A stretch of DNA of 64,000 nucleotides from Balneolaceae bacterium. GTDB taxonomy: Bacteria; Bacteroidota; Rhodothermia; Balneolales; Balneolaceae. Shown here piece after piece: positions 42,084 through 45,944 of this stretch (positions are counted from its first letter, which is position 1; every line of letters starts with the position of its first letter). The stretch covers positions 2,504,976-2,568,975 of the forward strand of contig CP051242.1 in the NCBI GenBank assembly GCA_017795005.1, read 5' to 3'. The notes beneath the pieces were generated by a model that was not told the origin of the DNA, ran no database searches, and worked only from the letters and a program-made list of their open reading frames with translations. The position numbers and the translations under genes are program-made.

Positions 42084-42103
42084 TGAGTAACCTATTCGAC
42101 TAA

Positions 42104-42763
42104 TTAGACTTGCTTTACCAACTCATAGTTTTCAATATTTTCTCTTATTTGTAAAGCTTTTTCGATATGAGTATTCATATCTTTTTTAAAATCATCCCAC
42201 CTAACGCAATGGATGTATGAACAATCAGCATCCTTATATATAGTTTGACCTTTCCAATTTTCCTGATCCTTATCTATGCAATTAAACAGGTTTTTTTGAA
42301 TTATCCCGAATGTCTTATTCGTGTAGATAGTTCTACCCTTCCCTTTTTTACTCTTTCTGTAAAAATATCCATAACTACCTTTTTCATCTGGGATTACAAC
42401 CCCAACTAAGGCATTTTCTATACTGCTTTTATCTTTTCTTGATTTTTTTCTAAGTGAATAAGATACCTCCCACGGAATCCATTGATCTGACTCTTCTTTG
42501 GCATGATTTTTCATTCCCTTGGATATCACAATAATAGTTACAGAGCTATCAAAAATTTTGTCTTTTAATTTTCCACGTACGGTGGATTCCTTAAACTCTT
42601 CCAGCGACTCGTCTTCAGATTCTCCTTTAAAGATGTGATTTCCCTCTCCTATTATTTCCTGAATTCTATCAACGTAAGTTCTTGCTGTTGTGTCTTCATC
42701 GCCAGCTATTGGCTTCACTTTATTATCACTGTATTTATATGTAACAAAAACTTTTCGCCCCAA
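42104..42763 (-). CDS. ThsB-like TIR-fold protein (DUF1863/MTH538 type)
   Basis: A 219-residue protein of the ThsB/MTH538 TIR-like class. Strand beta-A is KVFVTYKYSD, the SSVTIIVIS strand is beta-D-like, and QWIPWEVSYSL contains the conserved Trp-x-x-Trp-Glu with E99 as the likely NADase glutamate. In Thoeris, ThsB senses infection and makes a cyclic ADP-ribose-type signal from NAD+. It is the last gene of a three-gene minus operon (5 bp after the SLOG gene). The C-terminal half (about 135-219) is less conserved. Assignment to Thoeris function is inference from family and context. Confidence 0.8.
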   Translation of the reverse strand: MGRKVFVTYKYSDNKVKPIAGDEDTTARTYVDRIQEIIGEGNHIFKGESEDESLEEFKESTVRGKLKDKIFDSSVTIIVISKGMKNHAKEESDQWIPWEVSYSLRKKSRKDKSSIENALVGVVIPDEKGSYGYFYRKSKKGKGRTIYTNKTFGIIQKNLFNCIDKDQENWKGQTIYKDADCSYIHCVRWDDFKKDMNTHIEKALQIRENIENYELVKQV

Positions 42764-42768
42764 AACAT

Positions 42769-43356
42769 TTACAGTTCAAGAAGTGAGCGGAATAAAGACA
42801 TATAGCCCAATTCTGTTTTTAAACCTGAGTCAAGTTCTGATTTATGATTGGTATATATGATATTTGCCGCACCACCCGTATTTGCAATCGGTAGAATTTT
42901 CGCATTTGGATGAGTAGCCAAAAAAAGATCGAATTCTTTTTGAACTCCGTTCATGCCTCCTATAAATACACCAGCATAATAATCATGTTCTTTAATCATG
43001 CTCTCTCTCATCAATTTCAGACTCTCTGATTTAGAATCCAGCTTTGGAGTGAAAATCTTATTAAGAAACAGGTGATTTTCTTCCGGGAAGAAATCTTCGA
43101 AAAACTCAGATTGGTATAAAATTATATTTCCCGATGCTTCAGGTTCTTGTGTTGATACTACTTCGTGTATTAGTCTTGTAATTACAGGCTGACCACCATA
43201 CACAAGATTGGCTTTAGCGATTATAACCGAAGCGAGGGCTTTTATCGCATCTCTGATATTTGTACGATCGAGCGTTTCAAAATATTTCTTTTCCGTTTCT
43301 TCGGGAATACTTGCCGAAAGAAATATCTTTTTTAGATTTTGTTTTTCATTAGCCAT
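42769..43356 (-). CDS. Standalone SLOG-like Rossmann protein
   Basis: A 195-residue protein with landmarks of the SLOG (LOG/SMF-like) fold: beta-1 KIFLSASIP (residues 10-18), the glycine-rich LVYGGQPVITRLI (51-63), VFIGGMNGVQKEFDLF (130-145) and PIANTGGAANII (156-167). In Thoeris ThsA proteins a SLOG domain binds the cyclic ADP-ribose product. Here it is separate, with no SIR2 or transmembrane part. The gene overlaps the upstream TIR gene by 25 bp and is followed after 5 bp by the ThsB-like gene, implying tight co-expression. Ligand binding is inferred from the fold, not shown. Confidence 0.75.
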   Translation of the reverse strand: MANEKQNLKKIFLSASIPEETEKKYFETLDRTNIRDAIKALASVIIAKANLVYGGQPVITRLIHEVVSTQEPEASGNIILYQSEFFEDFFPEENHLFLNKIFTPKLDSKSESLKLMRESMIKEHDYYAGVFIGGMNGVQKEFDLFLATHPNAKILPIANTGGAANIIYTNHKSELDSGLKTELGYMSLFRSLLEL

Positions 43357-44504
43357 TCTTCCACTTCTGTAATTTTAATCGATTTAATGGGAAGATGTTC
43401 ATCCAACCATGAAAGATGTTCAAGCCACTTTTCCTGTACATGCCTGTTATCATATAAAAGCCATATTGAATCAATATTTTCTTTTCTGATCTCCTTCACC
43501 AACTCAGCGCTTTGATTATATGTAAATGCATCAGGTACCCCTACACTTGGAATAATTACATCTTTCGAATTTTTTATAGTAATAAACTTATGAGGTTGTA
43601 AATCAGCCTCAACTTCAAATTTCTTCGCTGACGAAAAAAACTCGGTGATAATAGTATCCCTTCTCGATGCAAGACTTCTGGCCCGCATAGATTCAACCAA
43701 CCAGGTAAATTCTTTTACAACTTTCCTTTTAAGTACACTTCGTTGAGTATCAAATGTTCCTGATTTAAAATGTTTATGGGAAAGAAACATTGGTGTCATT
43801 AACTCAGTTCCACGGTCTGGTTGATGTTCAGGCCAAATTAATTGAACAATGCTTATACCCATTGAATTAGCTTTTGCAAGTTCCTGCGAAGTCCAGTTAC
43901 TCTCCAAAAATTTTGGAGTATTAAGTATTACCGCGATATCTGTATCCGAAAAACGATGCCATAACTCATCCTGAAAATGATCTCCTGGTTTAATGCTGTG
44001 AGTATCCAGAAAAACATCAAAACCTGCTTTTTCCAGAGCTTCGTATAATTGAATGGCTACACCTGAAGATTCATTTCGTTTATAGCTAATGAATAACCGT
44101 CTGGCAATTCTTAACAGCCCAACACCTTCTAAAATAATATTTACAATTTTGTTGAAGTCCTGCTTGATTTCAAATCTTGCCCCATTTAATGGATATAAAA
44201 TTTCAGGTACCTGATCTTTATAATCTTTATCAAACGAGTAAACAGGAATTATTAGAGCTGAATCGTTTTTAAGTTTTTGAAGTAAGTTTTCATCACTCTC
44301 TTCCTCTTCTCCACCAAAATAAATTACTACAGTTGGGCTGGTAACATCATAGAGGGAATTAAAATCCGCACCATAAATAATACTTATTAGTTTTCGATCA
44401 AGTCCCAACTCATCAACCTGAAAGTAGAACTCCCTTAACAATAATTTTTTAAAAGGCTTTATATTGCCAAGGAGAATAAGTTGATATTTTGAATCGCGGA
44501 TCAT
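43332..44504 (-). CDS. TIR-domain protein with unknown flanking domains
   Basis: A 390-residue protein. The central TIR domain spans about 135-232: RRLFISYKR (beta-A), FDVFLDTHSIKPGDHFQDE (box 2-like), DIAVILNTPKFL and NWTSQELAKAN with the candidate catalytic E208. The N-terminal 130 residues are an unfamiliar alpha/beta region (LILLGNIKPFKK..., TVVIYFGGEEE), and the C-terminal 150 (with IWLLYDNRHVQEKWLEHLSWLDEHLP) match no family I know. The first gene of an operon with the SLOG-like and ThsB-like genes. By analogy with other prokaryotic TIR proteins it may degrade NAD+ on infection, or make a signal; which role is unknown. Confidence 0.8.
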   Translation of the reverse strand: MIRDSKYQLILLGNIKPFKKLLLREFYFQVDELGLDRKLISIIYGADFNSLYDVTSPTVVIYFGGEEEESDENLLQKLKNDSALIIPVYSFDKDYKDQVPEILYPLNGARFEIKQDFNKIVNIILEGVGLLRIARRLFISYKRNESSGVAIQLYEALEKAGFDVFLDTHSIKPGDHFQDELWHRFSDTDIAVILNTPKFLESNWTSQELAKANSMGISIVQLIWPEHQPDRGTELMTPMFLSHKHFKSGTFDTQRSVLKRKVVKEFTWLVESMRARSLASRRDTIITEFFSSAKKFEVEADLQPHKFITIKNSKDVIIPSVGVPDAFTYNQSAELVKEIRKENIDSIWLLYDNRHVQEKWLEHLSWLDEHLPIKSIKITEVEEWLMKNKI

Positions 44505-44679
44505 TAAAAATCTTTTGCTATGCCTTTCTTGCAGGAGAAGAACTCTGATAACCCGCTATATAAAGAGATTTAACTATAAAGTTAGTGACAACATTCCTAT
44601 TAATTTATTTTCCTCCAATAAGTTACAGGAATATATTTTTTAGTGTAGATTATAAATCAATTGCTGTTATTTTAGGTTT

Positions 44680-45879
44680 ATGAAAGGATTTAGTCTCGCT
44701 TTTGTTTTAGTACTTATTGTACAGAGTTGTACTTCATCTTCTTATTTCAAAGATGGGTATTTGTTACCGTCAGATTCTGAACCCGTTGAGATTCCGTTTA
44801 CATTGGAAAAAGGCTTAATTGTTTTGAATGCAGAAGTAAATGGAGTTTCGGGAAGGTTTCTTTTTGATAACGGTTTTTCGCTTAGCGCTGTTGACCCCGA
44901 ATTCGCACAAAAAGCGGGGATACAATTTGATCAAAAGTCTACCATTTCTGATGCAAACAGTAAAAGCCAGAAGATAAGTCGTACAAATGTTGATTCTATA
45001 GAGGTTGGAACCCAAAAGTTTATGAATACTGGTTTCTATGAAATTGAAACTTCAAATTTTTGGTCCTGTACCGAACTTGATGGTATAATAGGCGCCTCAA
45101 TTATCAACAAAGCAAATTGGAAAATTGATTTTCAGGATTCTTTACTCTGGATTTCTTCAACTCCTTTTGAAGATAAAGGTATCCAATTTGATTATAGGAT
45201 AAGCACTAACAACGGGAGTTTTATAGAACTTCAAATAGATGGGAAAACCTTCAAAACAAAAATTGATTTTGGTAAGTCAGGAGAACTCGATCTTGATTTT
45301 AATCGTGCAAAAAGATTATTTGAAAATGATTCAGTTGAAGTTCAAAAAGGAATTATGTCCCTTTCTGCCACTGGACCAGGGGAAACAGAAATGTTATATT
45401 CTCTTGCTGAATATCAACCTGTTATAGTTGATGGAATTACCCTCCCCTTGCAAACAAAAACTGAACTCTCTCATGATTTAAAATATCAAGGTTATCTTGG
45501 CGCCGGATATTTTAAACATTATCAAGTGATCATAAATTCAAATGAACAAAAGTATATTCTGAGAAATGAACAACCGTCTCCTCAGTTAAGCAGCCTTTCG
45601 TATGGTTTTGCGATATACCCTCTTAACGAAGAATGGAAAATAATCCGGAAAAACCCTATTGATTCTGACTTAATCGGAGTCAATCTAATGGATACAATAG
45701 TTGAAATAGATGGGCTTTCTGTTTCACAATTTGCCGATAACTGTGAATTAAATAACTTGCTAACTCAAAAGAAAAAAGCTCAAGAATCTATACGAATAAA
45801 AACGTTACAACGAGAAACTGAATTAAACATACCCTACAACAAAACCACTCTTACAACATTTAATTCAAGAGAAGAATAA
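44680..45879 (+). CDS. Retropepsin-like aspartyl protease lipoprotein with PDZ-like end
   Basis: A 399-residue protein with a probable lipoprotein signal (Cys17 in IVQSCTSS). The first half reads GRFLFDNGFSLSAVDP, the retropepsin motif, but with D63-N64-G65 in place of DTG. A second, weaker copy (KTKIDFGKSGELDLDF) suggests a two-lobed fold. Residues about 305-390 resemble a PDZ domain (IIRKNPIDSDLIGVNLMDTIVEIDG). It is divergent from the TIR operon. DNG may still be catalytic, since Asp is kept, but activity is uncertain. Confidence 0.78.
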   Translation: MKGFSLAFVLVLIVQSCTSSSYFKDGYLLPSDSEPVEIPFTLEKGLIVLNAEVNGVSGRFLFDNGFSLSAVDPEFAQKAGIQFDQKSTISDANSKSQKISRTNVDSIEVGTQKFMNTGFYEIETSNFWSCTELDGIIGASIINKANWKIDFQDSLLWISSTPFEDKGIQFDYRISTNNGSFIELQIDGKTFKTKIDFGKSGELDLDFNRAKRLFENDSVEVQKGIMSLSATGPGETEMLYSLAEYQPVIVDGITLPLQTKTELSHDLKYQGYLGAGYFKHYQVIINSNEQKYILRNEQPSPQLSSLSYGFAIYPLNEEWKIIRKNPIDSDLIGVNLMDTIVEIDGLSVSQFADNCELNNLLTQKKKAQESIRIKTLQRETELNIPYNKTTLTTFNSREE

Positions 45880-45944
45880 ATCAGTGTGGCATCACTAAAT
45901 TTTTTACCCTTTATTAGGCTAAACAAAAAAACCAACCATAGCCT

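Follow-up and report, generated by a model that had tools for sequence, protein, structure and literature searches.

In type I Thoeris, ThsB makes an isomer of cyclic ADP-ribose (cADPR) that is bound by the SLOG domain of ThsA (PMC10022894, PMC11204291), and the ThsA residues R371, K388 and E403 have been reported to coordinate 3'cADPR (PMC10022894). The signals of Thoeris types II and IV are His-ADPR and N7-cADPR (PMC12847820). The name "Thoeris type III" is used in PMC12390725, where it is linked to the phage inhibitor TadIII; our literature search found neither the phrase "type III Thoeris" nor a description of the mechanism of this type. Here, we describe a three-gene operon from a 64,000-nucleotide stretch of a Balneolaceae genome (hereafter, the window) that we identify from its sequence as type III Thoeris, in a minimal form and with all three genes intact.

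Operon Layout and Classification

All three genes are on the minus strand. thcB4 (43332..44504; 390 aa, ATG start) lies directly upstream of thcA (42769..43356; 195 aa, ATG start) and overlaps it by 25 bp; after a 5-bp gap, thcA is followed by a further TIR gene of ThsB type (42104..42763; 219 aa, TTG start). An ORF check reproduced exactly the coordinates, the overlap and the gap given in a first-pass annotation made by a model from the letters alone, and its assignment of the products as TIR, SLOG and ThsB-like proteins agrees with profile matches in Pfam, PADLOC and NCBIfam that are far beyond chance. ThcA scores 206.5 bits against NCBIfam NF058525 (curated cut-off 110) and matches Pfam LD_cluster3 over nearly the whole protein (1e-53). 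ThcB4 scores 404.8 bits against NF058526 (curated cut-off 220) and matches the PADLOC ThsB model PDLC00434 over its full length. The 219-aa TIR matches the PADLOC ThsB model PDLC00428 over its full length with 246.6 bits, its score for Pfam ThsB_TIR being just at the cut-off (21.3 vs. 21.2 bits).

Because models of ThcA and ThcB4 already exist in NCBIfam under Thoeris type III, we rejected a new "split Thoeris" class, and the window operon is a further example of a catalogued system. The first-pass annotation had correctly recognised that the operon is of Thoeris type, the roles of sensor, ligand-binding module and TIR effector being divided among separate polypeptides, and its mechanistic guess is plausible; the anatomy thus stood, whereas the novelty was overstated for a type that is catalogued in NCBIfam and named in PMC12390725. 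Like its type III relatives, the window has ThcA and ThcB4 above curated cut-offs, in one operon and in the same order, together with a ThsB-type TIR, but it has one extra TIR where most relatives have two or more. The other types were discarded, as the three proteins lack the effector domains that define them: in Pfam, they contain no SIR2 (fused to the SLOG in the ThsA of type I, the SLOG here standing alone), no macro domain (present with transmembrane segments in the ThsA of type II) and no caspase-type match (the effector of type IV being a caspase-like protease), and the gene adjoining the operon at 44680 is of the aspartyl-protease type and on the opposite strand. Type I is nevertheless echoed in the ThsB-like TIR and in a SLOG carrying the ligand-site glutamate of ThsA; in contrast to type I, the SLOG of the window is a separate polypeptide lacking SIR2, and the place of the effector is probably taken by a TIR protein. 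Models for Thc proteins other than ThcA and ThcB4 were sought at the adjacent NCBIfam accessions, which held only unrelated families. Scans for promoters and terminators gave signals at shuffle level.

ThcA as a Putative Signal Receptor

The SLOG fold of the 195-aa protein, set beforehand as a test that could refute the annotation, was confirmed by structure prediction (mean pLDDT 93.6; proteins from plasmid records were left out of the alignments used for prediction). The model was most similar to the 3'cADPR-bound SLOG domain of B. cereus ThsA (Z 15.2, 154 residues, 2.5 A), a match found in a second look with VIA-align, Foldseek alone giving no match under E 0.001. As other SLOG-fold proteins follow closely, with LOG, the Moco carrier, DprA and the TRPM N-termini at Z 11–14, the predicted fold is by itself no proof of the ligand of ThcA. 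In a profile alignment, which was weak (E 0.38), ThcA E141 aligned to E403 of B. cereus ThsA (BcThsA). E141 and R117 are each present in 62 of 62 homologues, and R117 is likely the counterpart of BcThsA R371. According to both Pfam and the predicted structure, ThcA consists of the SLOG fold only and has no killing domain; we propose that it serves as a receptor of a nucleotide signal.

Two TIR Proteins

ThcB4 combines an N-terminal alpha/beta domain, a central TIR domain (residues about 134–275, Pfam match 138–214) and a C-terminal alpha/beta domain (pLDDT of the prediction 89.7). The two flanking domains have no family assignment. Glu 208 in the motif NWTSQEL, a candidate glutamate of the first-pass annotation, is kept in 67 of 67 aligned homologues. 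The TIR domains of RPP1, SARM1 and AbTir cleave NAD+. The predicted structure of the ThcB4 TIR domain matched best those of RPP1 and SARM1 (Z 14–15), with AbTir lower among the matches; ThcB4 has the TIR fold and the catalytic glutamate in common with these NADases and differs from them in its own flanking alpha/beta domains and in having a SLOG partner. By analogy, ThcB4 probably degrades NAD+, and we propose it as the NADase half of the effector. Both databases, NCBIfam as well as PADLOC, place ThcB4 among the TIR "B" (ThsB) proteins, a placement that alone does not make it the effector.

For the 219-aa TIR we propose the role of sensor and signal synthase. The protein is a full-length homologue of PDB 9vyl (E 4.8e-55), named by its depositors as "putative cyclic ADP-D-ribose synthase TIR1"; the two are not the same protein, but the homology extends throughout and includes the motif WIPWE. 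A literature search found no publication on this entry. The homologues, PDB 9vyl included, begin with MGRK as does the 219-aa TIR, which supports its TTG start. The other candidate glutamate of the annotation, E99 (WIPWEV), is the putative catalytic residue of this protein and is kept in 44 of 45 aligned homologues. In a further locus, a TIR of this type (L044:6593-7279) has Gly in the place of the catalytic Glu (QWMPWGISYSL) and may therefore be an inactive sensor. The genome of the window also encodes a second TIR_2 protein (G000:C1:226442-226795), which by its score is not ThcB4.

Gene Order and Co-divergence among Relatives

We searched for relatives of ThcA in a phylum sample, plasmids, bacterial genomes and viral contigs. 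Relatives were found in 5 of the 394 genomes of the phylum sample (the window's own included), in 29 plasmid records and, with three proteins, in the viral contigs of IMG/VR; from bacterial genomes, we kept 80 ThcA loci of the 307 confirmed. Gene order was surveyed in 95 loci, including that of the window. Loss of the three-gene order in homologues had also been named in advance as refuting the annotation; the order recurs in the survey. Of the 95 loci, 91 have ThcB4, and in each of these its gene immediately precedes that of ThcA in the same orientation, within 60 nt in 85 loci and overlapping by 72–96 nt in six (with the longest ORF called). The number of other TIR genes, on the other hand, ranges from none to five per locus, and several kinds occur: the kind found in the window is present in 54 loci, and the minimal trio in 12, the window's included. 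At four ThcB4 loci, no recognised sensor TIR was found within 4 kb, possibly because the stretches were short or ORFs were missed.

Four loci have no ThcB4. In one of them (L003), the fetched stretch ends early; the others are two Chitinophagaceae loci (L050:6004-6954 and L072:5950-6957) and one from a Cytophagaceae MAG (L057:5998-6564), whose contig ends just past ThcA. The two Chitinophagaceae loci have a 125-aa ThsB-type TIR after ThcA, and all three have similar non-defence neighbours and are possibly a domesticated or reduced system. These three Bacteroidota loci mean that ThcA does not always need ThcB4.

In a Klebsiella plasmid (NZ_PP376100.1), a protein labelled "CBASS cGAMP-activated phospholipase" (L006:2306-3922) is encoded inside a type III Thoeris cluster and has an N-terminal SLOG (LD_cluster2) region followed by a patatin domain; it is perhaps an additional membrane effector, gated by its SLOG. 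Of 5,426 E. coli genomes, 4 carry this cluster with an identity of at least 99%.

We computed pairwise protein distances for the 53 loci having all three proteins. The distances of ThcA correlate with those of ThcB4 at r 0.76 and with those of the 219-aa TIR at r 0.40, and when corrected for the third protein, the partial correlations are 0.71 and 0.08, respectively; the bootstrap interval of the difference in r (0.19–0.57) excludes zero. Across these sequences, the co-divergence is what a fixed ThcA–ThcB4 partnership with exchangeable sensors would give, and it supports a model in which an exchangeable sensor TIR would signal to a ThcA–ThcB4 effector pair; as a correlation over related sequences, it is no proof of contact between the two proteins. 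We consider it somewhat more probable than not that the effector is made of two obligate chains, ThcA and ThcB4, the SLOG receptor switching on a TIR NADase in trans and the sensor TIRs being freely exchanged.

The roles could also be distributed differently, with ThcB4 itself sensing or making the signal, the 219-aa TIR being an additional sensor and ThcA working by itself as an effector or a regulator. The names ThcB4 in NCBIfam and ThsB in PADLOC are in keeping with this, a catalytic Glu is needed by signal-making TIRs too, and ThcA occurs at some loci without ThcB4. We regard such an arrangement as unlikely, as the SLOG-only ThcA would have to act without a killing domain, and it is ThcB4 that is the constant partner co-diverging with ThcA while the other TIRs vary.

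Insertion and Distribution

The operon shares an AT-rich segment (42084..45944) with an aspartyl-protease-like gene on the plus strand (44680-45879). The GC content of the segment is 33–36%, compared with 37–45% outside, and the segment is absent from two congeners (G139 and G077), where about 86 and 260 bp separate the flanking aminotransferase gene from the homologue of the 45945-46511 gene that comes after it. Among the 92 genomes of the family, only the window's own has ThcB4 above the cut-off, and the aspartyl-protease-like gene was found in none of 18 relatives. Given the absence of the insert from two congeners and the patchy presence of the system, the simplest reading of the sequences is that the operon was acquired by insertion in the lineage of the window. 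A search for terminal repeats on either side of the insert gave no convincing pair, and no mobility genes were seen. A phage origin is not supported: ThcB4 was found in 0 of 50,697 phage records, and the IMG/VR relatives of ThcA are only the three mentioned. The "inserted defence island" of the first-pass annotation holds as an insertion and fails as a multi-system island, the insert comprising one operon and one protease-like gene.

A TIR–SLOG operon might instead serve the host outside phage defence, for example in NAD+ or stress signalling, and the few genomes with a chromosomal ThcA and a short TIR, similar neighbours and no ThcB4 fit such a use. For the window operon we find this highly improbable, as the patchy presence (1/92 genomes of the family and 5/394 of the phylum sample, each count including the window's own), the insertion relative to congeners and the relatives on plasmids together form the pattern typical of a set of mobile defence genes. 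Decay or loss of function of the window operon is less credible still: the TTG start of its third gene is the only oddity in the sequence, against three intact ORFs that are as long as their homologues and keep the catalytic and ligand residues.

Proposed Mechanism and Significance

We consider it likely that a type III Thoeris pathway, leading from a sensor TIR through ThcA to NAD+ cleavage by ThcB4, explains the operon as a whole. By analogy with the described systems, we infer that the 219-aa TIR would sense infection and turn NAD+ into a signal that would resemble cyclic ADP-ribose; that ThcA would bind this signal through its SLOG fold and, as the constant partner of ThcB4 and presumably in contact with it, activate ThcB4; and that ThcB4 would then cleave NAD+, the depletion aborting the infection and so providing defence. 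Production of the signal thus falls most likely to the 219-aa TIR, its reception to ThcA and the response, cleavage of NAD+, to ThcB4.

The survey suggests a simple and testable rule, in which the ThcA–ThcB4 pair stays fixed as the core and the sensor TIRs are the parts that can be exchanged. The window operon is a clean three-gene version of what is usually a multi-sensor defence system, and therefore a convenient minimal set for asking which protein is the sensor, which is the killer and what the signal is.
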